From Sphaerolaimus hirsutus (Eukaryota; Nematoda; Chromadorea; Monhysterida; Sphaerolaimidae): a stretch of DNA of 64,000 bases. Location of the stretch: assembly GCA_964036195.1 (NCBI GenBank), contig OZ038458.1:18365832-18429831 (forward strand), given 5' to 3'. The stretch's first letter is position 1. Each line of letters starts with the position of its first letter. The notes under the pieces were generated by a model. The model was not told the DNA's origin, did no database searches, and saw only the letters and a list, made by a program, of their open reading frames with translations. This document shows positions 3,869-63,774 of the stretch, one piece after another. Position numbers and translations under genes: made by a program.

Positions 3869-3954
3869 CTGAAATTGACCAAAACAATTACGAAACGACG
3901 TAATATGTCTATCATCCGGATGCAGCGCAATGTTGTAAAACGCTTGATTGATAT

Positions 3955-3972
3955 CGACACTGCTAAAAGTAT
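3955..3972 (-). other. Frame break between gag-pro and pol
   Basis: At the junction the minus strand reads TACTTTTAGCAG. In the upstream frame TAG stops translation. In the pol frame the same bases encode the start of RT motif A (SVDINQ). One T in the run is surplus, so the break is either a single-base insertion, an assembly error in a short homopolymer, or a programmed +1 shift. Most gypsy shifts occur between gag and protease rather than inside RT, so a mutation or error is likelier. Confidence 0.8.
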
Positions 3973-8354: not shown

Positions 8355-10917
8355 ACGGTGATCAGTCGCCTGAACTCACTGGGAATATTAAACAAACCAC
8401 TCGCTGCTACCAGTTGTCATGAATTTTCACCGGCTACTTTTTACTCAACCAAATTCCACTATGGCAAACTGCCAAGTTTTACCGATCTCACACCTACTCG
8501 TTGGATGAGCGACAAAGTAAGGCAACGGAAAAGCGACTACCGATTGAATTCGCAACGCACAATGGTGAATTCACCGAAGTGAATATCACAGGTGTACGCT
8601 ACGTCAATTAAGTTAGCTTTTTAGCGAATGGCGTTTTTATCAACGCACCAGCAATTAGTTGAATGTCTAATTTACACCAAGGGGTCCGAAGTTTTTAGAA
8701 GAGATTTTATTTTAGACGATTTTTAGACTCAGAATTCACACATTTAGATAGAACACAGGGAACACACTGAGAGCGAGTTTCTAACCAGCGGCACAAAACC
8801 TTCGAAAAAACTCCAAGAAAATGAAACCGAAGCAATTTCGACTGAATCGACCCCTACTCTAAATTACGGTACGCTTTTATACGCAACAACATAAGCCAAG
8901 TCCAGACAACACTTCCACATACCACGAGAAGCATGCTTACAAACGACTTTACAGACACACGGAATTTTAAAACGGGCATACCTAAAATTATTCACGGCGT
9001 CAGTTTACAGGATACGTCGATCAACTACACAAAAACACAAAGAATTCACGCGCCAAAAATCGGGTTGGGAACAAGAGCGAGGACAAAAATAGAAAATGAG
9101 AAAATGAACGAATGCGACAAGAATAAAAAGAACAGGAAAAACACACGAGATACTGTAAAAACCTGTTTTAGCGCGAAAAAAAATGGCGGGCGATTCAAAT
9201 TTTACTCAGCGAACTCTACCGAAATTCCAAAACCACCTCCACGAACGGGGAAACACACAGCAATTAGCGAAACAAATAAACACGCGAACAGTAATCCCAT
9301 CAGCAAAAAGAGCGTATAATAAACGAAAATGACGTTGATATCCAAAGCGTAAGAAGCACACGTATTATTAATGCACAACGAAAAAATGTCGTAAGCGGGA
9401 TAATCCATGGTAAGATTAGGATACCGGTAAGGCGAATGGAACTAACTTTCACACTGACTGTCAAGGAAAAAATGAATTACGGTACCGTTTTAAAGACGCT
9501 AAGCGGAAATTCTATCAGAGTGATTAAATAACTACGCACTCAAATCAGATCACCTTTACACTTATCAAAATATTCGGGGAAAAAACAGGAAAAACAAGCG
9601 GCTTATTATTTCATCTCTTTGTATAATAAAGATCAACCACGAAATTTGCATAAATTCCTAAATATCCAAATGTCAAGTTATCAGTTTTCTAGGGGAAAAG
9701 GAAATACAAAAAAATCAATCTAGGATTAGGTAGATAAAAAAATAAACAGCGAAGTTGCAAACGTAAAATCAAATAAAAATTAGCATACTCGAGTTTTACC
9801 TATTCCCTACCAACCTAAAGTTAAAATGAATATGAAGTCGGTATAACGCTTAACAGAAATACGAACGCAAATGATTGGCAACTTGAAAGTTTATAAATTT
9901 CAATCTTTGTAGCTTAAATGCATGTTTGGATTGCATGACTTTTTGAAGTTTAAAACTAAAAACAACAAGTGAATCCACTGCCACATGTCGAAACGCAACA
10001 GCCATTAACTACCGAAGGCACTTATCACGAAAATGACCACTCTCGCTGCTACACCACTCATTCTGCTACCAGAATATTAATTAGTTAGCCACGGCTTTTT
10101 GATCCCATACGCACTATGCAAAAACCACACCCCGAAAATACCGAACTGCTCAACTCACTCAAAAATAGGTACACTTGTCACTGTATGGGTGCTTGTTTCG
10201 ATGAGATCGGCGGACTGGGCTGTTCTCACAACAAGCCAAGGGAGTAGGCATTTAGACATGCGATCATGCCTGTCGAGTTAGACTCGATTCTTTTAATTAC
10301 CTCTCATTTTCAACACCAATCATCATCGCACCTCTATAATCAGTGTACCTTTGTAAAATCGCGTGTAAATTAACTTTTGTTTCCCAATCCGGAAATGCAG
10401 GAATGCACAGTACATACTAGATCAATAGCCGCGACCCTCACGTAAAAAAATGCAACGAAAGTAGTCAAAATTCAACCCATGTGCCCTCAGTTATCACTGA
10501 CCATTCACGCACTACGACACGTAACTGCAGCGTCACTCTTTTTACTTAGAGAAAATAACTGAAATTTTGTTATGCAATCCAAACCGCTAGTAAAAAATTA
10601 CTTTTAAATTAAACTGTCACAATTAAAATTGTTGCCAATTCACTTGTCTCACTTTCTTAAAAAAAAACTACCTAATTAAAAAAATCTAAACAAATAAAAA
10701 CAACTATTTACATCACAGCGTCAACTTTGTGTCAGATCCTCAATACCTCCAATCCTTTCCTTGGCCAGAAAAAACACACATAACACAATGGGGCACCGGA
10801 AAAACGGAAATGCACGTTGCCACGTTGCCAACGTAGCGCAGCGACGTAGCCGAAAACGTCAACGCCACGTTCGCCCACCGAATCGCCCAAAACCATCGTC
10901 GAAGTAGAACTGAAATG
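8355..10917 (-). other. Retrotransposon 5' leader and probable LTR region, not resolved
   Basis: No convincing gene. The stretch upstream of gag keeps the element's character (many gcg, cga and aaaacgcg words) up to about 10.9 kb, so it should hold the primer-binding site and 5' LTR. I could not identify TG...CA ends or a tRNA-complementary site, because the partner LTR is outside the window. A 68-residue minus frame at 9202-9408 with a hydrophobic stretch is probably chance. Confidence 0.5.
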
Positions 10918-11025: not shown

Positions 11026-11470
11026 ACACCCACTTTTGCTCACAAAATGTCATGTAAAATGTCATGCAAAGTGTCAACTGTCATGAAAAATGTAAAGTAA
11101 AGTGTAAATTGTCATGACATGTAAAAATTAAAGTATCAATTGTCAAGCAAATTGTGTTCAAATCTCATGTTTTATTTCGAAATCTTATGTTTTGTATCCA
11201 AATTATGTTGTTGTTGACTCCAAATCTTATGTGAACATTTGGATACAAAAAGATAAGATTTGGATATAAAACATACATACTATGGATACAAAAACACAAG
11301 ATTTGGATACACATTTTACACTTTGCATGACATTTGTCATGACAATTGCATCTTTGCTTGAAATTTTACATGACACTTGACATTTTGCATGACAATTGAT
11401 ATTTTACTTTACTTTACATTTGTCATGACAATTGACACTTTGCATGACATTTTACAAGTGTGCCCAGCAC
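11026..11470. mobile_element. TGTAAAATGTCATG inverted-repeat MITE
   Basis: A 0.44 kb element whose two ends are inverted copies: the left end reads GTAAAATGTCATGCAAAGTG, and the right end carries its reverse complement ending CATTTTACAAGTGTGCCC. Its centre carries inverted copies of an AATCTTATG/GGATACAAA motif, shared with the element at 61.84-62.10 kb. It is therefore a member of the C(A/T)GGGGGCAGTCCC...TGTAAAAT family, but here the 3' end has lost the ACAG acceptor. Confidence 0.7.
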
Positions 11471-19957: not shown

Positions 19958-20520
19958 TTATTTTGTGCGCACAGGCGCAAAACACAAGTGAACAGCAAAA
20001 AAAGAAATGAATTTTTTCCATCTGGAACAATATCGATGGCAAATGCTGGGCAACGAATGCAATCAACACTTTAAAATGAAATTTTATTCTCTTAATAATC
20101 CGCCACTCAAAGCTCTTATTACCTATCCACAACATTATCCGGGGGCATTATTCTAGGTATTAAATACGGCATAGTGAATGGCATGTGAGAAATCAAAGGG
20201 GGGTCTAAATCTCACAGCCACTAAACTTGTAAATAGCCGAACAAGTTGTAAGCCGGGCAGTGTCAACCATAACTAATCCATGGCATCGGATTGCGGTCGT
20301 GCACGCGTCAAACCGACGCTTTTCCTCTGAATAAATGCACGGACACTTTCATCGATGCAACACGTGGTTTTTAAGTGGGCGCGTGCCGCGCGGGTTTATT
20401 TGTTTGTAATCAACAAATTTATAATTATGTGATTTGTTGATTTAGGTCACGTGCCGCCGCGGCGGGTAGACGGCCACGTGACTGCTGGAGAATTGCTGCG
20501 AGGCAAGAAAATGAAATCAG

Positions 20521-20735
20521 GGGTCAGTTCCGTGAATGGAGAAGTGTGATGAGAACGGAAAAGCGAAGTAAAATGAGAAGTGAACAGTGAAGTGTTTTTA
20601 ACTTCTCATTTCACTTCTCATTTCACTTCACTCTTCACTCCTCATTTCTCATTTCACTTCTCATTTCACTTCACTCTTCACTCCTCATTTCTCATTTCAC
20701 TTCACTCTTCACTTCTCCACTTGCGACACAATAAA
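20521..20735. repeat. TTCACTTCTCA minisatellite inside an AGTTCCG-type MITE
   Basis: About 120 bp of tandem CACTTCTCATTT/CACTTCACTC words preceded by their inverse (GAAGTGTGATGAGAACGG). The left end, CAGTTCCGTGAATGGAGAAG, resembles the element at 40755-41073. Confidence 0.65.
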
Positions 20736-20830
20736 TCAAGCTTTTCTAGTCGCTCTGCGGTCGGCCGGCGGCCGTCGGTCATTATATCAACGGCGACACA
20801 GTTACCTTCCCCACTAAAAATCATGACGTC

Positions 20831-40377: not shown

Positions 40378-40600
40378 CACGAACAAATTAATGTAAAACA
40401 TAAAATTAACAATTCAAATTAAAAAAACGCAAATTGAAACCCACTGGTGCCTTTCAGTGCACTCATGAGTATTTTTGCACGTTCACAGAATAACTTGAGT
40501 ATTTTGTATGTGCACCTATATATTTATTTTAATGACTAAATGTTCGCCAGCGGGACGTGGTGTGAATGAAGTCACACACGGGCACAAAATGAAGTCTTTA

Positions 40601-40754
40601 TCACATATTTTGCAGCTGCAAGTTGACGCTCGTGTGCGGTGGCGGCGCGACACAAACCAAAGCTAATGAGCTATTGGTCACGCACTTTTGGCCCTGTTGA
40701 CAATTGCAAGGTATACAGTGTGCTGGCGGTGTGGGTTTTGATTTGCTGTCACAC
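40601..40754 (-). CDS. Orphan cysteine-rich terminal exon
   Basis: The minus strand has the acceptor GGCACCAG at 40755, then 50 codons ending TGA at 40601, starting in phase 2. The peptide holds six Cys in the order CDS, C, IPC, NC, KC and VC. The pattern is C-X11-C-X2-C-X-C-X6-C-X10-C, like a small disulfide module of an extracellular protein, and it ends in a polar tail. The exon abuts the inverted-repeat element 40755-41073, whose end supplies the acceptor. Upstream exons were not found. No family recognised. Confidence 0.5.
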
Positions 40755-41073
40755 CTGGTGCCAGTTCCGCAAAGTGAGAAGTGAAAAGTGAAATGGCAAA
40801 GGCGAAGTAAAAGAGCAAAGGCGAAGTGAAACGGCAAGCGAATTGGCAAAAGCGAAGTAAAAAATTTTTTCTAAACTAAAAAAAACTAAACAGAGATTTT
40901 TCTTCGCTTTCGCCATTTCACTTGCCAATTCACTTGTCAATTCACTTGCCATTTCACTTCACCTTTGCGCTTTTACTTCGCATTTGCCAATTCACTTCTC
41001 ACCTCACCTTTGCGCGTTTACTTCGCATTTGCCAATTCACTTCTCACTTCTCATTTTGCGGAACTGGCCCCTG
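40755..41073. mobile_element. CCAGTTCCGC inverted-repeat element adjoining an exon
   Basis: CTGGTGCCAGTTCCGCAAAG faces TTTGCGGAACTGGCCCCTG. Arms are built from GAAGTGAGAAG and GGCGAAGTAAAA words with inverted counterparts. The outer CTGGTGCC/GGCCCCTG ends are the same type as the CAGTCCC family, so it may be a sister family. Confidence 0.75.
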
Positions 41074-44410: not shown

Positions 44411-47400
44411 TCATATATCAAGCAAAAAAATCATGGTCAGAAATTCTTCATAATCAACTGTAATCACACCATCACGATCTGTGTCTTTGTCTCTGAATGC
44501 CCCAGTCAACATCTGCAGATAGAGAACACATGCATACATAAAATGTTTACTTTTATTCTGTATGCCATAAAACAAGTTAAAAAATGGCTGAACCATGGCA
44601 GTGAACATTTATTTAGATAACGTTGTACAATTGACATTTGAATACCTAAATATGTGTGGTATTGGGGGGCACAATTAACGATGGCAAAAAAAGATTCGAA
44701 AATTCGAAAACATTTTCGAATTTTCGAATTTTTTCGGAATTTTCGAATTTTTATTTCACCCCTGGAAAAAACACTTAAAAATCGATTTATTTTTAAAAAA
44801 ATTCAAAAATTCAAAAATTCGAAAATTATTTTCGAATTTTTTAAGGAATTCAAGGCCACAACAGTGTATAGAGAACGTGAACGACAAAAGCTGAGCTTTG
44901 TGATCTGGGAAATGCATAACACACATCAAAAACAATTGACTGTGTTATGTTAGAACAGGGTTTGTACCATTTACGTACTTATTTTAAATAAGTCTATAGA
45001 GTCTTATACATGGTGCTTTTTGTTGGCAAAAAATAAACCCCCCACAAAATAACCCCCTTCAAAATTTCCACTCTGAGAAGAAAAAAAACCCTGGGAATAA
45101 TTCCAGAAAATAAGGTAGCAGATTGACTGAATGGTTTCATTTTTTGTGGAGGGTGCGGACTGTAGCCACAGAGCACGTGGTTATAACTCGGGAACCGCTC
45201 AGCGAAAATTGCTCAAATTTGAATATGATATGGTTTGATGTCAGGGCTAAAGGGTAAATCAGAGGCCACTCAATACGACTGCCCTTACTAGGGATAGCGT
45301 GTTTGAAAAAATTTATTTTTTTCTCGATATTTTGGGTGTCACCTGATTTGACCTCAGATATGAACTGAATAGAACTCTCCACAACTGTGTGATTATTTTA
45401 AAAGTCAAATGGCAATAATCAGTTGAGAAATTAATGGCTGAGTTGTTGAGGTGCAGATTTTGCATGTTTCTGGCAATGCGCAAAAAGTTTGAAAAATTTA
45501 CTTCTTTCAGATCAATCTCAGGTCTTGGTATGGAGTATAGAGTATAGAGTATAGAGTCGCTTCCAATATACCTGTTATCCCTGCCCGGAAACCATATAAT
45601 ATTAAAATCTGAGCAATTTTGCCAAGCAGTCCAAGTAATAATGACATGCTCCATGGCTAACCCCCCCCTAAAATGTTACCTCCAGTGAAGTAGTTGTTGA
45701 AGATTTGTACAATTTGCATATTTTTAGTTGTTTTCCTTTTCCCCATGTTGAATCAATGTGTACATGAAATGAAGAGGTGGCAAACTGGTCCACATAAGTT
45801 CCACCATTCGTGATGCCAAATTACTGTGAAAATAAGGTTAAAAACGTGAAAACTGTCTTAATTCTGTGTTAAAGGGTTCAAATTCAACACTTTTTAAAAA
45901 AAATTCGAAAACTAATCAAAAAAATTCGAAAACTGCCCAAAAAGATTCGAAAATTGCTCAAAAAAATTCGAAAATTCGAAAATTCGAAAATTAAATTCGA
46001 AATTCGAAAATTAATTTGGGGAAAAATTTGAAAATTCGAAAATTCAATTTAGAAAAAACACTTATAAATTTAAATACTTTTTTCTGGAGGGTTTGCCATC
46101 GTTAGGCACAATACGGTTTTATTTATTCAATCAGTGTGACATTGATGCTCGCAGCTGAGAAAATGGTAGTTTTGCACGTAGGCTTTTAACGGTATAAATA
46201 CATCTACCTTTAAGCCGGAATTAGAGCTCAGCGTCGATTCGACATGAAATGACGACGTGAAATGACGTCGTGAAATTAACTACACGAGTGTGGATCATGC
46301 TACGGGTCTACAATTTTCTAAGGATAATATATGAATCAATACCTTAATCGTGTCCAATACTGAGTGTTATCAGCCACAACTAGAGCGAATTGAAAAATTC
46401 AATTTTTATCATTTCACGTCATCATCATTTCACGTCACAGTGTCAGGGAACAACTTGACATTTCACGTCAGACTATTGCTTGCAATAGTCTGACGTGAAA
46501 TGTCAAGTTGTTCCCTGACGTAAAATGATGACGTGGAATGATAAAAATTGAATTTTTCAATTCGCTCTAGTTGTGGCTGATAACACTCAGTATTGGACAC
46601 GATTAAGGTATTGATTCATATATTATCCTTAGAAAATTGTAGACCCGTAGCATGATCCACACTCGTGTAATTAATTTCACGACGTCATTTCACGTCATCA
46701 TTTCACGTCGAATCGACGCTGAGCTCTAATTCCCGCTTTAGGGTAGGTTATGTGTCAGTGAAAGATACTGCTCATCAGAAGTTGTAGCTTTGTAGTGTAG
46801 GTACAAAAAAAAGTTGCTCCACAATTACTCGTTAATGGCATGTGAAATCCATACATGTTGTGCATATTTTAAAACCACACCGAAAAGCTGGATTTTTCAA
46901 TAATTGAGAGCATTAGTTCTAAGTTTTTGCATAAATGCATGACACTTTCCTGATGAAAGTTGATTCTATTGTTAATACAATGGGTGTCTACCAGAGTTGG
47001 AAAAACGTATTTACGTTTACCCGAAATACCCAGTTATTTGGGTGTTCATATTTACGTTTACGTTTACGTTTTCCAAAAATACCATTACGTTTTGATACGT
47101 TTTCCTGGCACAATTACCCGGGTACCAGAGAAAACGTAAAAATCGTATGGAAAATGCACAAAAACAGTGCATTTTTGAACTTTTTTCTGATACAATATGT
47201 ACAATTTATGTTTTTGGCCAATTATCTTCTCAATTGTTTGATAAATAACATAGGTAAGCACGAATGTGATCGTATTAGCAGAGAAATGGTTGAAATAGGA
47301 AAAACAAAAGTGTTTTTCAATGCGCTTGATCATGGGTGGTGCACTTTAAAGAAATTTTTACATTTACGTTTTTTTAACGTTTACCCAGGTATTTTAGAAG

Positions 47401-48921
47401 TATTTTACGTTTTCAGTATTGATACTCACAATTTAGAAAAGGTATTTACATTTACTTTTACGTTTTCCAAAAATACCAGTATTTGTACAACTCTGGTGTC
47501 TACTTAATAAATGTTTCATGGATATAAATATATTTTATTTCTGAAAAGATCCCCCAGATGAAAACACACCTGCAATGCAATACACATGTGTATGAAATCA
47601 TCAAACAACACAGCAGATCTCTTGGTAGTATCAAATCTAGCCACCAGCAAATTGATAAATTTATCCGATAGTCTGTAGCCAAAATCACGTAGAGCAGTAC
47701 GCAATTCAGATGGCTCAATGCTTCCACTTGAATCCCTGCAATGGAGGAAAATTGTGTTGTGGTAGCAAACCTTTAGTTTCAAGTACCAATTTTCAAACAA
47801 AGTTACAACAATTTCAAAAACAGGAAAAATCTACCTGTCATACATAGTGAACACAGTTGTCCACTGATTTACATATGGCCACAATTTGATAAAATCTGTC
47901 AAAGTCAAGAGCCCATCTCCATCAGAATCAAACATTTTGACAAGTAGTTTACATGCATTCATGTTGAATGGTTGCCAAGTTCCATTGGCAAGTGATGCCT
48001 GCAACTCGTGTGCATCGATGCATCCATTTCCATCTCTGTCTACTCTGTATAAGTTAAAAAATTATGATGTCTGTGAATTTCTATAAAGTTTCCATATTTG
48101 CTTGAATAATTCCCATCCCCTTAAATGATTCTCTCCTTGAATAATTCCCCCTTAAGGCATATACCGTATTTCCTCGAAATACCCCTCCCCCCCTCGTTTG
48201 ACCCCCCCCCCCTCTCGAGACCACTATGAAACAATCACCCCCCCCCCGTCGGAATACCCCCCCCAAATTAAGTGGAAAGAGAACGTACATGACAAATACT
48301 GCAGTTTGTGTTCTGCGTAGTGCAGAACACACGTTAAAACAATGTCGTAATCACGTTAGAACAGTGTTTATATTTACCATCTACGTACTACTATTAGTAT
48401 ACAGGAGTCTATACATGTCAGTTATTAATGCATATTTCTACCCCAGTGTACATCACAAACGACGATTTTGTACTACGATTTGAAAAAATTTCTGGCGAAA
48501 TAATACTCCCCCCCTCAAAATACCCCCCCTCCTTTAACCCCCCCCCCCTCTCGGGACCACTATGAAACAATCACCCCCCGGGGGGTATTTCGAGGAAATA
48601 CGGTTATCATTTTCTTGTGTCTAATTTGAACAAAAATAGCATGTTTTGTGGAATGAGTTGATACAAACATGCTTGAAACTTTTGACGAAATAATAATTCC
48701 CTTTTGAATTACTCCCCCTTGAATAACCCCTCAAAAAGTCTGACGAAATCTTTGATTCCTCAGGGGAATGTTTTGACCAAATTTGGTAATTTTGAAAAAA
48801 ACATTGAACATTTTTACCTCCGGAAAATGTCAGCCAGCATGGTATTATTTTGCTGATTATTTTGAGTTTGTGGAGCATAACTGGGTTGTTGATAGCCGGC
48901 TGCCTTCACGATGGAAGCCAT
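44411..48921 (-). CDS. Penta-EF-hand calcium-binding protein, ALG-2/PDCD6-like
   Basis: Four exons read as complement(44411-44512, 47570-47735, 47835-48044, 48818-48921). They join in phase to 582 bases, 193 residues, from ATG at 48921 to TGA at 44411. A short N-terminus rich in Tyr, Pro, Gln and Asn (GYQQPSYAPQ) precedes five EF hands. Visible motifs are DRDGNGCIDAHEL (EF1), DSDGDGLLTLTDF (EF2), DSSGSIEPSEL with the typical GYRLSD helix (EF3), FDTTKRSAVLFDDFIHMC (EF4, degenerate) and DTDRDGVITVDYEEFL (EF5). Length, order and the final TMIFLLDI match ALG-2/PDCD6, a calcium-dependent adaptor in ESCRT and COPII traffic. All donors are GT and acceptors AG. The third intron, about 3 kb, is filled with transposons. 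The second is only 99 bases. Confidence 0.93.
44676..46104. mobile_element. hAT-like TAACGATGG element with GAAAATTC arms
   Basis: Ends TTAACGATGGC and GCCATCGTTA; exact duplication GGCACAAT (44668-44675, 46105-46112). Both arms are arrays of ATTCGAAAATTCGAAAA. The core contains a degenerate C-rich MITE and minus-strand frames (45137-45382, 45313-45654) of no recognised family. It lies in intron 3 of the ALG-2-like gene. Confidence 0.88.
46212..46738. repeat. 527-bp fold-back element, copy 2
   Basis: Near-identical to 32444-32970, with the same terminal AAGC(C/G)GGAATTAGAGCTC and the same arm order. The few differences cluster at the centre. Confidence 0.9.
46992..47495. mobile_element. hAT-like CAGAGTTG element
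   Basis: CAGAGTTGGAAAAACG to TTTGTACAACTCTG; exact duplication GTGTCTAC (46984-46991, 47496-47503). It is almost the reverse complement of 36789-37292, so the two are recent relatives. It lies in intron 3 of the ALG-2-like gene. Confidence 0.92.
48164..48604. mobile_element. TACCGTATTTC MITE in intron 1 of the ALG-2-like gene
   Basis: TACCGTATTTCCTCGAAATA to TATTTCGAGGAAATACGG. The core matches that of 30241-30697. Confidence 0.8.
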
Positions 48922-53384: not shown

Positions 53385-53631
53385 CCGGTTACTTTACACC
53401 CTGCACGCGTGGTTCCCGCTGGAAGTGTGCCAATGATGGTTAACGCGTCCGAGTTTCATAAAAAGATGACAAAATTGATTGTTGTTATAATGTTATTCAT
53501 TAACATATTCACATCAATGAATTTTTTTCATATTTTTAGGAAATCGCATGATTTAATAATCATTGGCACGCTTCCAACACGAGACATAAATCAGTGCGAG
53601 GGCAGAGTATCACGTACGCCGAGTATACCAG
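53385..53631. mobile_element. CACTTTACACC/GTGCCAATG element
   Basis: ATACTCCGGTTACTTTACAC to ACGCCGAGTATA, with the inner inverted pair GGAAGTGTGCCAATGAT/ATCATTGGCACGCTTCC. Related copies lie at 12.63, 59.17, 60.33 and (inverted) 62.26 kb. Confidence 0.75.
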
Positions 53632-53801: not shown

Positions 53802-54635
53802 CAACGATGGAAACAACACAGAAATTGAACACAGAAACTCATTGAGTTTCTGTGTTTTTGTTTGACACAGAAACATGGAAACTCAGAATTTTAGAAAAAC
53901 TCAAAACTCAAATGAGTTTTTTATTGGAGAACATGGAAACACAGAAACACGGGAACACAGAAAAGTTTTTTGAGTTTTTTCATTGGATTTGAGGAATACT
54001 GTGCTGTGTTTAACTGAACAAGTAAGAAATGTGCATGATTACATATCAACAGATAACAAAGGGTCCAACTTTAATGACAAATAACAAAATACAACCTAAT
54101 TAACAAAATGGCACCTGGTCATTCTGACAATGATAGGATATGTGATTGACACTGACTGATTGACAAAGACACTTGCACCCACCACTTGCTCCACAGAGGT
54201 GAGGGCTCATCCCAAACCTTCCAAAAGAATAACCTGGTCACTTGTAAGGTATTATTTACAACTCTAATGCGTCAAAAGATGAGTTAGTCAAGTGAAACCA
54301 GTAAAGTAAAATGTCATCAAAAATGCCAAATGTTAAAAATTTAATTTGACATTTTGCATGACTGTTTACACTTTTCAGCACATTTTAAAGGGTCCCTGAA
54401 CATGCATAAACTAATTTGTGATGAGAAAACTACTGTTTTTGCATTGAACCACTGTATTTCAGTAAAAACTTACATTTTATGAAAAAAACTTGAGTTTTTA
54501 CAACAAAAAAAAAACAGGAAAAAAACAGAGTTACTCAATTTTTTTTTCGTGAAAAAAAATTAAAACCCAGGTATTCATTTTTGAAAAACTCAAAACACAG
54601 AAAGTATTTTTTTCTGGAGAACTTACCCATCGTTG
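53802..54635. mobile_element. hAT-like CAACGATGG element
   Basis: CAACGATGGAAAC to CCCATCGTTG; exact duplication GTCATGTG (53794-53801, 54636-54643). Arms repeat GAAACACAGAAACTC and AAACTCAAAAC words. Confidence 0.9.
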
Positions 54636-54921: not shown

Positions 54922-57900
54922 GTGCACTGTCAAAGACAACGGTCGCCCGCGGGCTTGTCGATTGAATTTGTTGTTTGGGGCGGATCCTGCACGCGATTTG
55001 GATTGACGGAAAGGTTTACAGTTTTCGATATTATTATTTTGTAGGTACGGTATATTTGATATTAATTTACCTAAATGTAAAGTAGACAGAGTTTTCACCG
55101 TATGATTCTATGCAATGAAATAGTGTGACAAAATGTGCAAGTCATCCTCAATGCTCGACGATTCAAGCCTGAGCGAAATGTTGGCACTGAGCCAAAAATA
55201 CGTTGTTCAAGTGATGACTTTCAGGTGATAAATGTCAAGTGACTGATGTTATGTCGAATGCCATGTGATAACTTTCAGGTAATAAATGTCAACTGTTTTT
55301 TCAAATGATTCATGTAGGTATCTAGTATTTACCGTATTTCCTCGAAATACCCTCAGGCGGTTTAATTTTGCAAATAAGTGCAAATTTTAAGGAGGATTAA
55401 TCGAGGGAGTGGTATTTCGATGGGTTATTTGGTCATAAGCTCACACAGAACTAGGGGTATTTCGGGGGTGGGGGTAGTTCAGGGAAATACGGTAGGTGCA
55501 AAAATAAGTGTAACTTTTGCACAATTAGTGTTAGTTTATGTTGTAATGCACATTAAATCAATTTGACACGCCCCCCACTCACCGACAACCGCCGGCATCC
55601 GATCTAGAAGAGGTAACTCTACGCGGTAAACTGAGCACCGACTCCGGGTGCACGCAGCGCGGCATGACCGGCGACATGCTCTTGCTGTTGGACACATACC
55701 TGCGGCGCATGGGCATCGCCGCTCTCAAATACGTGCACATTGAACAGTCGGATTTCGATTCGGCAGTGCGCTATTTCGAACGGGGTCAAATTGACTGCGT
55801 GGGCACAACTAACGATGGCAAAAAAAGATTCGAAAATTCGAAAACATTTTCGAATTTTCGAATTTTTTCATAATTTTCGAATTTTTATTCCACCCCTGAA
55901 AAAACACTTAAAAATCGATTTATTTTTCAAAAAATTCGAAAATTCGAAAATTCAAAAATTCGAAAATAGTTTTCGAATTTTTCAGGGAATTCAAGGCGAC
56001 AAAACACACTCTTAAGTTCAGCGTGCAAAATAAAGCGACAATTGATATGTGGTGGGTCTGAAAAAGACTGATGTAATAGAAAAAAACCATAAAACATTGA
56101 AATGGGGTCCGCGGCAACAGCAGCGGACCCGACACATATATTGAGGAATGCACTGAGCCGTGCCGTGAACAATTAGAACCGCGGCGCAGAAACGGGGACG
56201 CAGGTCCATCAAAAAGTCCGAGGGGCAGTTACCGTATTTCTTCGATTTTATTGACTGTCAATGTATTCTTCAGATGCCCTCCAAACCCGTCAAAGTAATC
56301 GAGCATGGCCATGTAAATGAACAGTCAATAAAATCGAAGAAATACGGTATATACACAAGCGTTTTTTTTGGAAGGTGTTCAGAAATGGTGCAAAATCACA
56401 GTGAAATTAAGGTTAAAAGGGGTTCCAAACATGAAAACAGTCCAAATACTGTGTTTTAAGCTCAAAATTCAACATTTTGTGAAAAAGATTCGAAAATTGA
56501 CAAAAAAAGATTCGAAAATTCGAAAATTAAATTCGAAATTCGAAAATTCATTTGGGAAAAAATTCGAAAATTCGAAAATTCATTAAGGAAAAAACACTTA
56601 AAAATTTAAATACTTTTTTTCGGGGGGTTTGCCATCGTTAGGCACAACGTGGTTTTATTCCGACAGCAGGTGTCAATCCCAGAGTCTGTAAAATGACATG
56701 TAAAATTTCAAATGGCATGTGAAGTGTCAAAAGTCATGTAAAATGCGCTGCAAAATGGCAAACGTACGTTTGCCATTTTGCAGGGCATTTTACATGACTT
56801 TTAACACTTTGCATGACGTTTTACATTTTACAGGGAATTTTACATGGTCTGGGACTGCCCCCAGGGCGCGCGCTGTTCGCATGCCACAATCCATACACAC
56901 CGGTGGGTTCCATGTAGATGAAGGAATGGAGGGATATGGAAGGAGTCAATCAGATAACAATAAAACGAAACCCTGAATTTTAGCAACACTGCACCAGAGT
57001 TGCGAAAGCGTATTTAAGCTTACCCAAAATACCCGGGTAAATGGGTATTTATACTTACGCTTACGCTTTCATAAAATACCCGTACGCTTTATTACGCTTT
57101 CCCGGCCGAAATACCCGGGTACTAAAAGTGTAAAAAAGCTTTTCACACAGTCCGGTTTTACGCTTTTGAATAAGTGTCAAACCACAGAAAAGAAAGTGAA
57201 CGAAACTGCGTACCAAAAAAAGTGACTGTGTGTGTGCAATAATGCACTGGAAATAGCGGCACATGTATTTACAAGTTGTGTCGCAATCGCAATATGAATG
57301 TTTGGTTTATACAGTGTCGCCAAGCACAATCGTGGCTTTAGATTAGACATTTTGGTGCTGAAAATGGATGGATTCCAACGACGATGTGGTCGTCTTCAAC
57401 AGTACTAAGTCAGAGTTAGAAAATGAAGATGACCTTAGTGTTACTGCCGATGAATTGCCAATGAATTGAATGAATCTAAGGGCAGACTACGAAGTGGTCG
57501 TAAAAATTTTTTCGCTGGGAGCTTGATTTTGCAAGAATTCACTGAGAAAAACTCTCTTAAAGAATTTTACGCTTACGCTTTTTTTACGCTTTTCTAGGTA
57601 TTTTAAAAATACCTTACGCTTTGAGTATCCATACTCAAAATTTGGGAAGTGTATTTACGCTTACGCTTATGCTTTCCAAAAATACCGGTATTTTAACAAC
57701 TCTGCACTGCACCATAGTTGTTAAAACGTATTTACGTTGAGTCGATAAATACGTATACTTGCGTACTGCGTAAATACATTTACGTTTCCTCCCAAAAAAA
57801 TACCGGTACTCACATACACACGTACTTTTTGAAAGAAATACAGAAAACGTATTCTAAGGGGACAGAAAATGTCATTTTGCCAGGCAGAAAATGACAAACA

Positions 57901-60900
57901 TAGGACATTTTCCTAAGAAGTACTTATCAGGTGAGAAAAACACACATTTTTGATGTATTTCTGAGTAAAAATTAAAAAACACCAATTTTTGCATTTTTTT
58001 TTGTGAGAAAAATACTCACTTTTACGTTTTCTGTGAGAAAACATACCCATTTTTACGTTTTCCCTGGAAAAAAACACTCATTTTTACGTTTTTTTTCTGG
58101 AAAGTAAAACAGTGTTTTACTCACCTTATATGCAGTGTAAAAGTAAAAATAAAATACTTTACGTTTTCTGTACTCATGTGTGAGTAAAATAAAAATACTT
58201 TACGTTTACGTTTAGTTTAAAATAAGTTCAGTACTTTTGACAACTCTGCACGGCACCCAATGGCTCTGCGCACACTAGTATAGTATGTACACACCCGAAA
58301 TTTGGGAAACTCATATTTACATCTGTTTTGAACAGATTTGAGTTTACAAGAATGAAAAGTTTGTCAACTACAGTCGACGGGGATTTCAACATCATTCATC
58401 CTGGTAAACTCAAATGTGATCAAAACAGAGTTTCCCAAAATTCCACGGTGTACTAGTAAACGTGGCCATAATACCCCGCCCTTTTTAGCATATAATACAA
58501 GCAAGTAATTTCACATTATGGAGCCCTCCCATAACCAACCCACCACACAGGTTCAGCCCTATGGATGACGGCAGTTCACGATGACTTCAGTCAAATAATG
58601 AAACAAGCATACCGCGCATTTGTGCCAACCGCATTTCAACTGCTTTCCAGTCTACTCGGTGCCATTTTTGTTATTTTAATTGTCAGGCACTTGCTGCTTC
58701 AGAGTGTTCCCGTAAGAATGTTTGGTCTTAAAAAGGTGGGTGAGGGATCTAGCAGGTACCGTATTTCCTGGAAATACAGCCAGGGGAGTTATCGTTTCAG
58801 AATGGAAATTTTGAGGGGGTATTTTGAGGGGGGTTTAGAACATACAAACGTAGATAGCTATACAAACTATTTGCTCTGTGTAGTTGCGATGCGAATTGGC
58901 CCCAATAAATACATCATGTAGATTGCATACATGATGTACCTCATTCAAGAAGGGAGTTATTTCGGGGGGGGGGGGGTACTTTTTCCGCAGCTCGGTTAAA
59001 CCTGGGGGTATTCCGAGGGGGGTAAATTGAAGGGGAGTATTTCGAGGAAATACGGTATGCAGGTATTTATAAATATTGCCAATGAGTCAAACTATTTATA
59101 AATAGAAATTCGCTGACAAAGTTGCTTTCGTGAAACCACTGGAAAGAACCTTATAATTCCCAATAACCACATATACTCTGGTTACTTTACACCCTGCACG
59201 CGTGGTTCCCGCTGGAAGTGTGCCAACGATGTTTAGCGCGTCCGAGTTTCATAAAACGATGACAAAATTGATTGTTGTTATAATGTTATTCATTAACATA
59301 TTCACATCGATGAATTTTTATCTTTTTACGGAAATCGCATGACTTAACAATCATTGGCACGCTTCCAACACGAGACATAAATCAGTGCGACGGCAGAGTA
59401 TCATGTACGCCGAGTATACAGGCACAGCCAAGCGCCGACACCGACAGGGGCATGCGCTTGTGGGACCAGCTGCGCTACATCCTGCCGCACTCGTCGGCGC
59501 CCAGACCCAGTGCGGCCGCGCCGCGGCGGGCGACCGGCGCACTGCTGACATTCCTGCTGGCTGTGGTGGTCGCAGATCAACATGTCGCACAGACACGCTT
59601 GAAACACAGAATCTGTGTTTTGATTGTTGTGTTGTGTTCTGGCTGTAGAGATATACCTAAATACGTGAACAGACCGCGTGCACAGCAAAAAATGGGTTTC
59701 CAAAATGTCCAAAAATATCCTGTTTGTTCTCATTTATTCCCATTTTTGGGTATGTTTTAGTCTAGTCTTTACTATGATCCTACATGAAAATTTCTGACGA
59801 AATAATAACCCCCCTTGAATAGGCCCACCTCGAATTAACCCCCTTTAAAATGGGGGTTATAATAAACTCCCTGGGGGTATTCCGAGGAAATACGGTAGGT
59901 ATTTTCTTTCTCAAAAAAACACAAAACATCTACTCAAAGAAAAAGACATGTTTGGTCACACTATTTTACTCACTGTACCAGAAATTGTTGCTGGCAGATC
60001 TGCTGCGCAGAGACACACGTGTCTCAGCTGATATCAAAACTTTTGACGAATTAGTTGAGGCACTCCAAAGCAACCAGGTGCCGATTTCTCAAATGGAAGA
60101 GAGAAAATACAAGTCATCAGTGGCGGGTCAATTAATAAATAATTTTTCTCGCGGTTTCTTGATATCCTCCATCGAAAATTAGAGTGGCGCCATGCGCCAA
60201 ATTGCTGGCAAAAACAGCACCAAGCGCCAATGGCGCCATGGCGTCACTCAAAATGAACGCGACGGACGCCTGATGGCGCCATAAAAAAGCGCCATTCCAT
60301 CACTACACATCACTATTGGATTAAGTTATACAGTAGTCACTTTACACCCTGCACGCGCGGTTCTCCCTGGCAGCGTGCCAACGATTTTTTTACGCCTACA
60401 ATTTTCATAAAAAGTTGAAAGAAGTCATCTCTGTTATAACGCTATACGTTAAAAAATTCACAACAATGATTTTTTTCATTTTTATACGAAAATCGCTTGC
60501 TTTATCATCATTGGCACGCTTCCAACGTGAGACATAAATGAGTGCGATGGCAGAGTATCATGTTCGCTGAGTATACCACCCATGACTTGTAAATATTTGC
60601 ACTGGTCCACTAGCGGAATTGGCTCCAGGTGTCCCTACTGCAGATGCGCCCAGATTGGTGGTTTGCTCAGCAGATTGAAAAATCCATGGCGCCACCATAT
60701 CTCAGATTGAGACAGGCACTAGCTAACAATCCAATGGTTTTCGCAGGTACCGAGGATAGACTCGGTGAAATGATACTCAATGGTGTGTGGTGTACTTTCA
60801 CTTCACTCATTTCATCATTTAAATGGTACAGTGAAGCTGCAGGTGGCTGCGAAAACTGTATTTGATAAGCTTGTCTACTTTTCAATATAAAAAGCTGATC

Positions 60901-62225
60901 TTGGAAAGATAACAACAAAACAATGGCGCCATTGTTTTGGCGCTTGGCGGTGGCGCCCTTTTTGGATCCATTTTGGCGCCAGGCGCCTTTCTTTTGGATA
61001 ACGCCAAAACGACGCCTCATAAGTATTCATTTTATCTTTATTTGCTATTTTTCTGAATTTCCTTTCAATTTAACGCCGTTTACCTGGTAATTTTCTATCA
61101 CTGCCAACAAAAAGCGACCCGTATCACACAGGCAAAAGCAAGTATATATCATACGTGCAGCGGAAAAGTTGGGAGGCGATCTACCGTAACCGTGGGAAAA
61201 ATGGCAATTGGTGCAAATTGCAGATGTATGAAATTGAAGTTCCACGTGAAGTTCGAATGCCAAACAGGGAATCATTTATATGCAGCAAGCATGAACGATC
61301 CGGGACGAAATTAATTTAGCCCGACAATTTTTTCCGGGCGGTACAATTCATTGTAGCTGAAATATCCTTATTTTGGTCGTGATTGGAAAGCCGATCTGTG
61401 CAGTGCAGTCCAACGTAAAATTCACTGTAAAATTTTCTTCATTTCTGTTGTTTGGCAATGAACATTTGGCATGAAATTTTTCAATTTTACTGCGCCAGAG
61501 CTCAGAACATTTGTACTGCGCCAGAGCTCAGAACAACGAATTGAAAAATATTTTCACATATTCTACGGTAGATAGGACCGTGGCGGGTTCACACATCGGG
61601 TTAATTGAATTTCGCACCAGACGATAGCATTCGCATTTTAAATCATGCGATATTGGCAAATCTCGATGTCATAGCGTGAGTTATTTATGCTGTACGTTTG
61701 CCGATATTTTCTATCACTACTCTACAGTAATTTTGTGTAAAATAAAAATAGTCGATTAAACACTCACAGGAACATAATCACGGAGAAATATGAGAAAGGT
61801 TCCCCAGTTGAGACTTCCGGATGCGCCACGGAGGACCAGGGGCAGTCCCAGAACCTGTAAAAATCCCTGTAAAATGTCATGTGTTATGTGAAAGACTCTG
61901 TAAAGTGTCATGTGTATCCTAATCTTATTCTGTAGTATCCAAATATTATGTTTTCGTATCCAAATCTTACGTTTGGACATAACGTTGGAAAGACATAAGA
62001 TTTGGATACGATACAATAAGATTTGGAGACACGTGACACTTGATAGGGTCTTTTACATGACACATGACACTCTACAGTGTCTTTTACAGGGTCTGGGACA
62101 GGCACCAGGAGAACAATAGTTTTAAACCATTGAGACCAGCAAACATGTTCGGAATTTATGCTCTCCTTCTGATTGGTTGTGGTATTGGATGTATCGCATT
62201 GTTGTGTGAACGTTTTGTGATCAAG
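54730..62225 (+). CDS. Divergent ionotropic glutamate receptor (IR-type), fragmented by transposons
   Basis: Exons read in the order S1, M1, pore, M3, S2, M4. Proposed pieces: 54730-54921, 55608-55809 continuing at 56649-56669 after a hAT-like insertion, 56865-56902, 58551-58711, 59422-59583, 59982-60077, 60629-about 60786, 61770-61856, 62090-62225. Phases agree at each join tested. Landmarks: VPKLPVITIGVPNDF (start of S1), GDMLLLLDTYLRRMGI, GQIDCVG, R-X-R-AVRMPQSIHTG (the R...FSKP-type loop), a hydrophobic M1 (LLGAIFVILIVRHLL), LWDQLRYILPHSS (pore), LLTFLLAVVV (M3), SADIKTFDELVEAL and WWFAQQIEK (S2), and FGIYALLLIGCGIGC (M4). Most glutamate-contact residues are absent and the M3 SYTANLAAF motif is altered, as in protostome chemosensory IRs. 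It would act as a ligand-gated cation channel. Whether this copy is functional depends on removal of insertions. Confidence 0.7.
55328..55496. mobile_element. TACCGTATTTC MITE in receptor intron
   Basis: TACCGTATTTCCTCGAAATA to GGGAAATACGGTAG. Short form, 169 bp. Confidence 0.75.
55608..56669 (+). CDS. Receptor exon: S1 lobe, split by a hAT-like element
   Basis: After GATCTAG the frame runs EEVTLRGKLSTDSG, GMTGDMLLLLDTY and ERGQIDCVGT to the duplication GGCACAAC at 55809. The element 55810-56640 follows. Past the second duplication the frame resumes TWFYSDS and ends at CAG|GTGTCA (56669). G+C content and codon use are clearly coding. The acceptor is uncertain: the frame is open for 15 more codons upstream. 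If the element is not removed, the only local route is GTGGGC (55799) to GTTAG (56641), which changes the frame. Confidence 0.6.
55810..56640. mobile_element. hAT-like TAACGATGG element inside a receptor exon
   Basis: TAACGATGGC to GCCATCGTTA; exact duplication GGCACAAC (55802-55809, 56641-56648). Arms repeat ATTCGAAAATTCG. Nested inside is a 120-bp TACCGTATTTCTTCGATTTT MITE (56230-56350). Confidence 0.92.
56230..56350. mobile_element. TACCGTATTTCTTCGATTTT MITE
   Basis: TACCGTATTTCTTCGATTTT and its perfect inverse AAAATCGAAGAAATACGGTA bracket about 80 bp. Third interior type under the same TACCGTATTTC ends. Confidence 0.85.
56670..56864 (+). mobile_element. Introner-like palindromic element acting as an intron in S1
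   Basis: The element is palindromic: TCAATCCCAGAGTCTGTAAAATG at the left edge (first part) is answered by CATGGTCTGGGACTG at the right, and the centre is TGCAAAATGGCAAACGTACG folded on itself. Its left edge reads CAG|GTGTCA, a strong donor; its right edge reads CTGCCCCCAG|G, a strong pyrimidine-rich acceptor. Splicing exactly at these edges joins SDS to RARAVRMPQ in frame. An inner pair, CT|GTAAAATG to TTTTACAG|G (56688-56833), is also a usable intron. Confidence 0.7.
56865..56902 (+). CDS. Receptor exon: conserved R...loop of S1
   Basis: A 38-base exon, phase 2 to phase 1, encoding RARAVRMPQSIHTG with the upstream split codon. It ends ACCG|GTGGGT and joins the M1 exon in frame (G-SALWMTAV). 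It aligns with the R-X3-IDFSKPFMTLG segment of glutamate receptors, and the distance from the preceding GQID is the usual 12 residues when the element before it is removed edge to edge. Confidence 0.55.
56995..57704. mobile_element. hAT-like CAGAGTTG element, GTAAGC subtype
   Basis: CAGAGTTGCGAAAGCG to TTAACAACTCTG; exact duplication CACTGCAC (56987-56994, 57705-57712). Both arms use TTACGCTTACGC instead of the usual TTACGTTTACG. A 33-codon acidic frame (57375-57476) may be a transposase relic. Confidence 0.88.
57713..58248. mobile_element. hAT-like CATAGTTG element
   Basis: CATAGTTGTTAAAACG to TTTGACAACTCTG. It shares its left flank CACTGCAC with the previous element; right flank CACGGCAC, 7 of 8. 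It therefore inserted directly beside the other copy. Confidence 0.75.
58262..58455. mobile_element. CACACTAGTATAG... MITE
   Basis: TTTGGGAAACTCATATTTAC and its inverse GAGTTTCCCAAAATTCC frame a 0.19-kb element; same family as 35.11 and 31.69 kb. Confidence 0.6.
58551..58711 (+). CDS. Receptor exon: membrane helix M1
   Basis: Acceptor CCACCACACAG; 161 bases starting in phase 1/2 and ending phase 0 at CCC|GTAAGA, a strong donor. Encodes SALWMTAVHDDFSQIM, FVPTAFQL, then the helix LLGAIFVILIVRHLL. An alternative acceptor six bases inside keeps the frame. Confidence 0.75.
58757..59057. mobile_element. TACCGTATTTC MITE in receptor intron
   Basis: TACCGTATTTCCTGGAAATA to TTTCGAGGAAATACGGTAT. Confidence 0.75.
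59167..59421. mobile_element. CACTTTACACC element whose end supplies a splice acceptor
   Basis: ATATACTCTGGTTACTTTAC to ACGCCGAGTATA, followed by CAG. The next base is the start of the receptor's pore exon, so the element's terminal GAGTATACAG serves as the acceptor. Confidence 0.7.
59422..59583 (+). CDS. Receptor exon: pore loop and M3
   Basis: 162 bases in phase 0, strongly G+C-rich. Encodes AQPSADTDRGMRLWDQLRYI, then the loop PHSSAPRPSAAAPRR and the M3 start GALLTFLLAVVVADQH. Donor CAACAT|GTCGCA. Joined to the next exon (KLLLADLL) it spans the same length as the SYTANLAAFLT segment of glutamate receptors. Confidence 0.7.
59806..59898. mobile_element. Short TACCGTATTTC-family remnant
   Basis: Only the right part (CTGGGGGTATTCCGAGGAAA) is well kept. 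Confidence 0.5.
59982..60077 (+). CDS. Receptor exon: end of M3 and start of S2
   Basis: Acceptor CTCACTGTACCAG; 32 codons in phase 0 (KLLLADLLRRDTRVSAD, then IKTFDELVEALQSNQ) ending at CAG|GTGCCG. TFDELVEA matches the SAEDLA stretch that opens S2. Confidence 0.7.
60180..60315. mobile_element. Decayed GGCGCC element
   Basis: AGTGGCGCCATGCGCC to AAAGCGCCATTCCATCACTA. A further fragment lies at 60923-61015. Confidence 0.6.
60328..60580. mobile_element. CACTTTACACC element
   Basis: CAGTAGTCACTTTACACCCT to GTTCGCTGAGTATACC with inner TGGCAGCGTGCCAACGAT pair. Confidence 0.7.
60629..60786 (+). CDS. Receptor exon: S2 lobe
   Basis: Acceptor GGCTCCAG (or CTGCAG at 60643, also in frame). Encodes MRPDWWFAQQIEKSM, then RQALANNPMVFAG and EDRLGEMILNGV. 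Phase 2 donors at GT|GTGGTG (60786) or TG|GTGTAC (60789) both fit the following exon. Confidence 0.65.
61770..61856 (+). CDS. Receptor exon: pre-M4, first part
   Basis: Acceptor AACACTCACAG; encodes NIITEKYEKGSPVETSG and CATEDQ. It then enters the left end of a CAGTCCC-family element (GQSQN) and stops at ACCT|GTAAAA, phase 2. Confidence 0.6.
61843..62103. mobile_element. Introner-like element within the M4 exon
   Basis: CCAGGGGCAGTCCCAGAACC at the left, CTGGGACAGGCACCAGG at the right. The inner inverted repeat carries CTGTAAAA as donor (61857) and its reverse complement TTTTACAG as acceptor (62089). The 233-base intron leaves 36 extra coding bases from the element in frame. The hexamer ACCAGG stands on both sides. 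Confidence 0.7.
62090..62225 (+). CDS. Receptor exon: M4
   Basis: From TTTTACAG the frame is VWDRHQ (element-derived), ENNSFKPLRPANMF and the helix GIYALLLIGCGIGCIALLC, then ERFVIK and donor AAG|GTATAA. M4 and its short cytoplasmic start are complete. The final exon is not certain: an acceptor TAGCCAG at 62781 would give an immediate TGA, which is possible. Confidence 0.65.
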
Positions 62226-62262
62226 GTATAACAACTGATTTAGGATATTATACTCAACGGAC

Positions 62263-62489: not shown

Positions 62490-62843
62490 AACATTTAATA
62501 TTATTATTATGATTGTGGGAGAGTTTTGAACCTTTTATCATTATATTCCGGATTTCACTAAAACAGCATTGAAAATTCTCTGCTGCACTGCAACAAAGGC
62601 ACACAATTTTAGCATGAGATCATAACAGATGATCAATGAATAAACTAATGGGAATCACCCACGATAAAATTGCGTTACCAAACGAAATAAATGCACAAAC
62701 ACATTCACAAACACAGTATTTTTATCCGGCTTCGCACCATAATAAGCGAACTGTCTAGTTGACTGAGTGCGAAATGATTAGCCAGTGAACTCTGCACACC
62801 ACACATCCGTGCCGACCACTACAAAACCCGGTCGTGGCAACTG

Positions 62844-63774
62844 GTGGCAGTCCCGCGCCCTGTAAAGTGTAAAGTCAAGTGTCAAATATCAAATGTCATG
62901 CAAAATGTCATACAGAAATATTTTAATTGTCGCGCAAAGTGTCTAAAGTTCAGTAATAAAATCTCTTTTTTCTATCGATAAACATTTGACATGATATTTG
63001 ACGAGTTTCATTCCAAAAGTGCATATATTGCCGCTTACCGCACACTTTCCAAATATTAACCTACGATACCTGTCTTATTTTTGTAATAGGTTGTAAACTA
63101 CCTAAGTAAGTTTCATTTTACATTTGTATGAAATAACAAAAAATGTAACTTACTAGTTTACAACTAGTGATGTGAAAAGCGCCAGAACTTTGGCGCCAAG
63201 CGCCATTGCGATTTTCCGACCCCCAGCGCCAATGGCGCCAGAGCAAAATGGCGCCAAGCGCCAGAAGCGCCATGGCGCTAGCGCCAAGCGCCAGCGCCAG
63301 GCATGTTGTTCCAGGTGCCGGTGAAAAAGCGCCAAGCGCCAAAAACGCCATGGCGCTTTTCATGGGCTCGGTGGCAAGCGCCAATGACGCCACAGCAAAA
63401 TAGCGCCAAGCGCCAAAAGCGGCATGGCGCTTTTACATCACTATTTACAACCTATAAAAAACTGATTAACAGTGCACCGAAGGGTAAAACCAATAACACC
63501 ATTGAAAGGCACATGTCGAAAAGAACCCTGACCTAAATTTTCAGGTATATAACATCCACATTTGATGTAAAACCCAAAACATTTGAAATCCATTCGTGTA
63601 CTTTTGAAAATGGAACTTCTTGTGTGGGGATTCCGGCTGGCTTTTCAGCACTATACGTGGATGTCAGATCCACGCTTAACTAGATTTTTCTGGATTCGGT
63701 GTTTATGCACTTTTAAAATCTCTTGATTTGGCACTTGATTTTACACTTTACATGGTGCGAGACTACCCTCTGAG
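62844..63774. mobile_element. CAGTCCC-family element, possible 5' UTR intron
   Basis: Left edge CTG|GTGGCAGTCCCGCGCC, right edge GCGAGACTACCCTCTGAG|TG. Edge to edge it has a usable donor (GTGGCA) and acceptor (pyrimidine-rich, AG) and would place the next gene's ATG 12 bases into the following exon. Contains the nested hAT-like element 63165-63443. Confidence 0.55.
63165..63443. mobile_element. hAT-like TAGTGATG element with GGCGCC arms
   Basis: TAGTGATGTGAAAAGCGCCA to GGCGCTTTTACATCACTA; exact duplication TTTACAAC (63157-63164, 63444-63451). Confidence 0.9.

Follow-up and report, generated by a model that had tools for sequence, protein, structure and literature searches.

A palindromic NuwaI-like miniature transposon within a receptor exon of Sphaerolaimus hirsutus as a candidate introner

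The question raised by the locus described here is whether a transposon that has landed in a coding exon can itself be the intron that is removed from it. The locus lies in a 64,000-nucleotide (nt) stretch of the genome of the nematode Sphaerolaimus hirsutus (contig OZ038458.1, forward-strand positions 18,365,832 to 18,429,831; this whole stretch is called the window, and its own coordinates are used below). The element in question (56670-56861, plus strand) is 192 nt long with a left end GTG and a right end GGG, and it appears from its sequence to be a NuwaI-like palindromic miniature transposon within a coding exon of a glutamate-receptor-like gene. The palindrome, the flush copies of CAG, the repeat family, the exonic location, the restored reading frame, and the GT and AG placed exactly at the edges are all directly observed.

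The palindrome, its flush CAG copies and its relatives

The first-pass annotation of this DNA had placed a GT at 56670 and an AG ending at 56864, and both positions were confirmed, together with CAG at 56667-56669 and 56862-56864. The palindromy was borne out as well, because an inverted-repeat search found arms of 97 nt each (56669-56765 and 56766-56862) that are 82% complementary with a spacer of 0. As a 194-nt half-palindrome the element scored 0.82, while none of 2000 random positions exceeded 0.42; scores of at least 0.60 occurred at four separate places across the whole window. In the RNA folding model the element plus flanks (56660-56875, 216 nt) folds as one hairpin of -115.7 kcal/mol, compared with a mean of -55.1 and a standard deviation of 4.7 for 200 shuffles (z -12.9).

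The CAG is best read as a target duplication outside the element ends, so that the element proper is 56670-56861. On the plus strand, the left copy (56667-56669) would form the final 3 nt of the upstream exon and the right copy (56862-56864) would provide the AG of a 3' splice site. The 8-bp flanks of the element are unequal; equal flanks do not exceed 4 nt even when the edges are allowed to slide by 6 nt. The CAGGG-like ends of the palindrome resemble those of hAT transposons; hAT membership was considered and rejected, since there is no 8-bp duplication. The left end differs from the GGGGCAGTCCC form of the right end at three of 11 positions, and this terminal divergence suggests an insertion that is not brand new.

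That the element is a transposon was further upheld by a repeat family, inverted repeats and flush target duplications. The motif GGGGGCAGTCCC, with at most two mismatches, has eight occurrences in the window compared with 1.19 expected, and the ends of 56670-56861 recur at 61837-62108 and 62841-63772, which makes them a repeat family. The second full copy (61837-62108, minus strand when oriented by its GTG end) has CAG on both sides and lies within the M4 coding exon of the same receptor gene; its left end is apparently one G short when length-matched to the other ends. The third full copy (62841-63772, plus strand; 932 nt including both CTG) lies downstream of the receptor stop codon. It failed the inverted-repeat scan, and its left end was taken from the motif and end searches and its right end from an end profile built from five ends, its own left end among them. 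A full-length element of a second family built on the same plan (40755-41073, minus strand) has CTG on both sides on the plus strand and ends GTGCCAGTTCC and GGGCCAGTTCC, and it abuts a Cys-rich frame on the minus strand. Weak or partial family ends were found at about 11044-11456, 37473, 49863 and 54302-54395, and these were excluded from the duplication count because the ends were too diverged or a single end was found.

Flush identical CWG trinucleotides flank all four full-length elements (CAG/CAG and CTG/CTG, twice each), and all eight ends abut CAG or CTG; the chance of a flush identical CWG pair is 3e-4 per position pair, with element edges placed partly by eye and having 1-2 nt of freedom. 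In a scan for inverted repeats between CWG copies, seven pairs were obtained, two of which are element edges (56670-56861 and 40755-41073). Another pair, 61843-62101, is the inner CAG pair of the copy at 61837-62108, whose true edges fail this ungapped scan because of a one-base offset; the remaining four, mostly A/T-rich, are taken as chance. Of two terminal-repeat patterns searched, the first had no match in viral contigs. The second matched 27 stretches, 7 in viral and 20 in prokaryote contigs; a simple expression found a matching inverted end within the following 1.5 kb in none of them (some loci being shorter than this), and we take these matches as chance. Within the window the second-family end motif gave its own two exact matches and one weak match, which is not above chance.

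The eight ends of the full-length elements start with GTG (four), GGG (three) or AGG (one), and the 60-nt ends of the first family are 42-81% alike. A clean asymmetry, with GTG on one side and GGG or AGG on the other in all four elements, was considered and found unsupported by the longer end comparison: the GTG end of 56670-56861 is 71% alike to the GGG end of 61837-62108 and 63% alike to its GTG end. We therefore treat the ancestral orientation as unproven.

Proposed splice sites at the edges and the receptor frame

The gene that received the element lies at about 55.6-62.2 kb on the plus strand, and its exon pieces bear a weak but consistent resemblance to an ionotropic glutamate receptor. 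They comprise an S1 segment containing GQID...R, a hydrophobic exon resembling M1, pieces of S2 and, at the end, an M4 piece with a stop codon at 62229-62231; the S1 motif, in which Asp and Arg are 12 positions apart, and the M1- and M4-like segments were identified by eye. The Pfam scores, 19.4 bits for SBP_bac_3 (E 0.00096) and 11.9 bits for Lig_chan (E 0.21), are both under the curated cut-offs. The composite protein had no homologue at E <= 0.01 among 8000 candidates scored in the protein collection, and its search against the PDB gave only three chance-level matches (best E 0.33). With these pieces the insertion site falls in the S1 coding exon, as had been annotated.

All the exon pieces are on the plus strand. 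The upstream part of the S1 exon (55601-55809), whose 5' limit is not fixed, gives weak Pfam matches; a short piece, WFYSDS(R), lies between two insertions (56649-56669); and the continuation (R)ARAVRMPQSIHT(G) at 56865-56902 is followed by the donor G|GTGGGT. The M1 exon (SALWMTAVHDDF...LKK, 58551-58735) is preceded by a CACAG|GT boundary and followed by AAG|GTGGGT, and the S1-M1 junction is thus a canonical GT-AG intron with matching phases. The M4 exon (61770-62231), encoding NIITEKYEKGSPVETSGCATEDQ and then ENNSFKPLRPANMFGIYALLLIGCGIGCIALLCERFVIKV up to the stop, is interrupted by the copy at 61837-62108. Excision of 56670-56864 together with 55810-56648 yields a single open frame (...FERGQIDCVGTTWFYSDSRARAVRMPQSIHTG) with Arg 12 positions after Asp, so the earlier claim that edge-to-edge removal is in frame and restores this spacing holds once the second segment is also taken out. 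When the element is retained, stops appear in the receptor frame.

The proposed intron (56670-56864, plus strand) is a GT-AG intron of 195 nt with donor CAG|GTGTCA and acceptor CTGCCCCCAG|G. Generic splice matrices give moderate scores: the edge donor falls within the best 7.6% of the 3432 GTs in the window, and the edge acceptor within the best 5.1% of the 2840 AGs. Among the 12 in-frame pairs that avoid stops, only one scores above the flush pair. The last 44 nt contain two YTNAY matches (A at 56830 and 56842), and A 56842, a possible branch point, is 22 nt before the final intron base. The SBP_bac_3 score was 17.6 bits for the edge-excised version (an 82-residue piece) and 15.3 bits for a version with six extra residues from an inner donor (a 95-residue piece), a weak comparison between unequal lengths.

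These observations can be explained if a miniature, nearly fully palindromic transposon with ends like those of NuwaI, a group of the Harbinger-related PHIS superfamily, was inserted into a CAG of a coding exon and duplicated this CAG. The 5' splice site would consist of the left CAG and the GTG of the element (CAG|GTGTCA), and the 3' splice site of the pyrimidine-leaning element end and the right CAG (CTGCCCCCAG|G). The spliceosome would then take out 195 nt, namely the element and one of the CAGs, leaving the frame unchanged and restoring the sequence that preceded the insertion. Since CAG|G is the usual exon-junction sequence, such an insertion would make a ready intron when the GTG end is upstream. 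Splicing of the pre-mRNA at these edges and a working gene are the inferred parts of this best explanation. That 56670-56864 is an introner-like intron derived from a NuwaI-like insertion seems to us plausible and mechanistically attractive, yet unproven and a little short of an even chance.

Several observations weigh against this reading. Any clean insertion is in frame once the duplication is removed, so that restoration of the frame is not evidence of splicing. The edge donor is weak at positions +4 to +6, and the acceptor at 56783 outscores the edge acceptor; with the same donor it ranks first, in frame, adding 81 nt or 27 residues. The age of 56670-56861 is not datable, its arms possibly never having been perfectly matched. 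As to the target duplications, sliding by 6 nt gives equal flanks of at least 4 nt in 1447 of 3000 random pairs, and longer off-edge equal stretches are also present at 61837-62108 and 40755-41073 (ACCAGG, CCTGGT); equal flanks being so common under sliding, only flush CWG identity is counted. In a blind scan of the window for inverted repeats between equal trinucleotides (at least 12 of 14 positions), CAG gave one and CTG two, while AAT gave 13, ATT 7 and TCG 4, i.e. no excess of CAG or CTG over other trinucleotides. The copy at 62841-63772 and the weak copies are outside recognised coding sequence, and at least one of the other three full elements would also fall in a coding exon by chance in about 9 of 100 cases, assuming about 3% of host coding sequence as estimated by eye.

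The first-pass annotation had proposed that one end sequence serves as the donor and its reverse complement as the acceptor. We had to abandon this scheme for the flush sites, because the flush donor GT belongs to the element and the flush acceptor AG to the duplicated CAG; it fits only the inner sites (CT|GTAAAA and TTTTACAG|), best in 61837-62108, where the donor is poor (top 32%). One alternative is that the elements are spliced, not flush, at such inner inverted-repeat sites or at acceptor 56783, and add residues as some Aureococcus introners do. The best of the ten in-frame pairs in 61837-62108, CCT|GTAAAA...TTTTACAG|G, adds 36 nt and draws its donor and acceptor (the latter in the top 0.2%) from a single repeat and the reverse complement of that repeat; in the main copy the highest score belongs to donor 56670 paired with acceptor 56783; and added codons have a precedent in the available part of PMC9860276. 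We nevertheless regard this alternative as unlikely, considering that the inner donors score poorly (top 32% and 55%) and that the extra residues would break an otherwise gap-free S1 motif. Less likely still, and in our estimation very improbable, is that an intron already existed at this position and that the element moved into it or took its place. Other introns of the receptor gene do contain other repeats; only the element lies between the two CAGs, however, and the flanking exon continues gap-free.

A far more serious alternative is that these are ordinary insertions (two miniature CWG-targeting elements and one hAT-like element), none cleanly spliced, in a broken receptor gene or haplotype, i.e. 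a young pseudogene. Three separate coding-exon insertions occur within about 6.3 kb, and it is not unusual for a CAG to be followed directly by GT (plus strand, 57 of 838 CAGs; minus strand, 43 of 756). The hAT-like insertion in the same S1 exon (55802-56648, plus strand) has the 8-bp duplication GGCACAAC intact on both sides (8/8) and the terminal inverted repeat (TIR) TAACGATGGC. No good GT-AG pair was found for it among six in-frame pairs; its flush excision needs a poor GC donor and its best GT donor would delete QIDCVG. The edges of 61837-62108 are CAG|GGGCAG and CAC|CAG. This second intragenic copy thus has no edge GT, unlike the main copy, whose two edges coincide precisely with GT and AG. 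A second copy without an edge donor and a hAT-like insertion without good sites together mean that the allele may be dead.

Against such decay, the six inferred exon pieces comprise 356 codons without a stop or frameshift, the phase is matched at the S1-M1 junction, and the terminal divergence of 56670-56861 suggests that this insertion is not brand new. In simulation the chance that 356 neutral codons stay open is about 5e-3 at 5% divergence and 2e-4 to 3e-5 at 8-10%; the force of these values is reduced by the pieces having been selected for openness, some open frame being kept in 8.7% and 4.2% of shuffles of the joined S1 and M4, respectively. We consider that the broken gene has a considerable probability, clearly below one half, and that the introner-like insertion is favored only slightly over it.

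Other elements and genes around the receptor gene

The window is transposon-rich and looks like animal DNA, judging from the receptor exons and the EF-hand exons mentioned below. A second hAT-like copy (44668-46112) has the same TIR TAACGATGGC as 55802-56648 and a near-identical 8-bp duplication (GGCACAAT vs GGCACAAC), and the right flanks of the two copies are also alike (..GGTTTTATT). The likeness of duplications and flanks suggests either that the element strongly prefers certain targets or that the flanks have a common origin; both copies are called hAT-like by the criteria of that group. A Stowaway-like repeat, recognised by eye from its TACTC...GAGTA ends beside TA, is present at 59176-59427 and also near 53385, 60325 and 62240. 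Only a few bases separate the end of the first of these from the CAG acceptor of a receptor exon, and this copy may have replaced the pyrimidine tract of that receptor intron.

The left end TCAG|GGGTCAGTTCCG at 20519-20740 resembles the second family; GAAGTG-type repeats come after it, and inspection by eye showed no right end to match. The Cys-rich open frame abutted by the second-family CWG element (CDSKSKPTPPAHCIPCNCQQGQKCVTNSSLALVC..., 40600-41073, minus strand) had no Pfam match, and by eye it is open upstream when joined across the element. Other long palindromes of unrelated sequence lie near 14566 and 39483, with centred stretches of 194 nt that are 95% and 78% self-complementary, and are probably other miniature transposons.

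A Gypsy-type retroelement (1160-8375, minus strand) has two long open frames of 943 and 1470 amino acids. The former matches models of reverse transcriptase, RNase H and integrase with scores above cut-off, and the latter matches only gag-like models, weakly. Of 8000 candidates, 363 matched the 943-residue frame at E <= 0.001; among the 120 matches listed, the domains are of reverse-transcriptase type, and the few that are named come from varied hosts. In viral contigs one stretch matched a pattern, and none encoded a relative. Exons of a penta-EF-hand gene, which we take to be ALG-2/PDCD6-like, are at 44411-47830 on the minus strand, and an EF-hand_7 score of 31.6 bits supports the fold of one exon.

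Significance and comparison with known systems

The broadest interpretation of the locus is that palindromic miniature transposons of a NuwaI-like type, which target CWG, serve as introners in an animal genome, with several families (two here) and with two introns of one receptor having arisen in this way. Sense insertions into a coding CAG would be born as flush, frame-neutral GT-AG introns, because the CAG that is targeted doubles as the consensus of exon junctions and one of the element ends opens with GTG; insertions in the opposite orientation would have available the fallback sites CTGTAAAA and TTTTACAG, which come from one sequence and its reverse complement. Taken as a whole, this interpretation is doubtful and we offer it tentatively. 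The origin of spliceosomal introns is a long-standing question, and if the interpretation is true, a target preference that writes the exon-junction sequence would explain how insertions can be harmless from the first generation. It would then also predict that exonic copies lie preferentially at CAG targets and in a single orientation.

According to the available part of PMC4482050, the NuwaI group of PHIS has CWG duplications and inverted repeats of 12-61 bp usually starting with GGG, has been reported from 16 animal genomes and from animals only, and is moved by a DDE transposase of PHIS type, with a Myb/SANT protein also encoded in most autonomous candidates. The elements found here are alike in the CWG target duplication at all four full-length elements. 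They have inverted repeats too, of which one end of each element starts with GTG and only three of eight ends with GGG. No transposase or autonomous copy for the family was recognised among the selected open frames scanned in the window, and the NuwaI assignment therefore relies on the ends and the target. An intron role is not mentioned for NuwaI in the part of PMC4482050 available, and we found no description of a NuwaI or CWG introner among the open-licence papers listed, as judged by titles and the starts of abstracts.

Introners are described, in the available part of PMC9860276, from Aureococcus, Micromonas, Symbiodinium, Chrysochromulina, copepods and others, and they are rare in animals, with two animal groups in that survey. 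The transposon signature of introners, namely inverted repeats or a target duplication, is present in 56670-56861. The likeness extends to a short non-autonomous element with inverted repeats, a short target duplication and, in the main copy, edges on GT and AG, and to an origin of one putative splice site in the element and of the second in the duplicated target; in Chrysochromulina, for example, the 5' site is carried by the element and the 3' site is co-opted (PMC9860276, same part). The present candidate differs in that the ends of the first family are strongly different (42-81% alike) and copies are found both inside and outside recognised coding sequence.

PIF/Harbinger is named among the elements recognisable in recently gained fungal introns, so a contribution of Harbinger-type elements to intron gain is not new as such. 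The candidate intron here likewise consists of a putative Harbinger-type DNA transposon, whereas the fungal account, in its available part, gives element classes without a target duplication, palindrome or splice-site mechanism (PMC8476143). The inverted repeats of the hairpin introners of the dinoflagellate Amoebophrya likewise pair into a hairpin, and the exon borders carry short direct repeats; those introns are mostly non-canonical with inverted repeats of 8-20 nt, whereas a GT-AG candidate with a full-length palindrome is found here (PMC7789003, available part). In the tunicate Fritillaria, again an animal, introner transposons with weak sites have been invoked as one possible source of splice-site divergence, and the S1-M1 intron of the receptor gene described here is, unlike that case, canonical (PMC13326754, available part). 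If real, the NuwaI-like intron at 56670-56864 would belong with the introners as a variant, without forming a category of its own.
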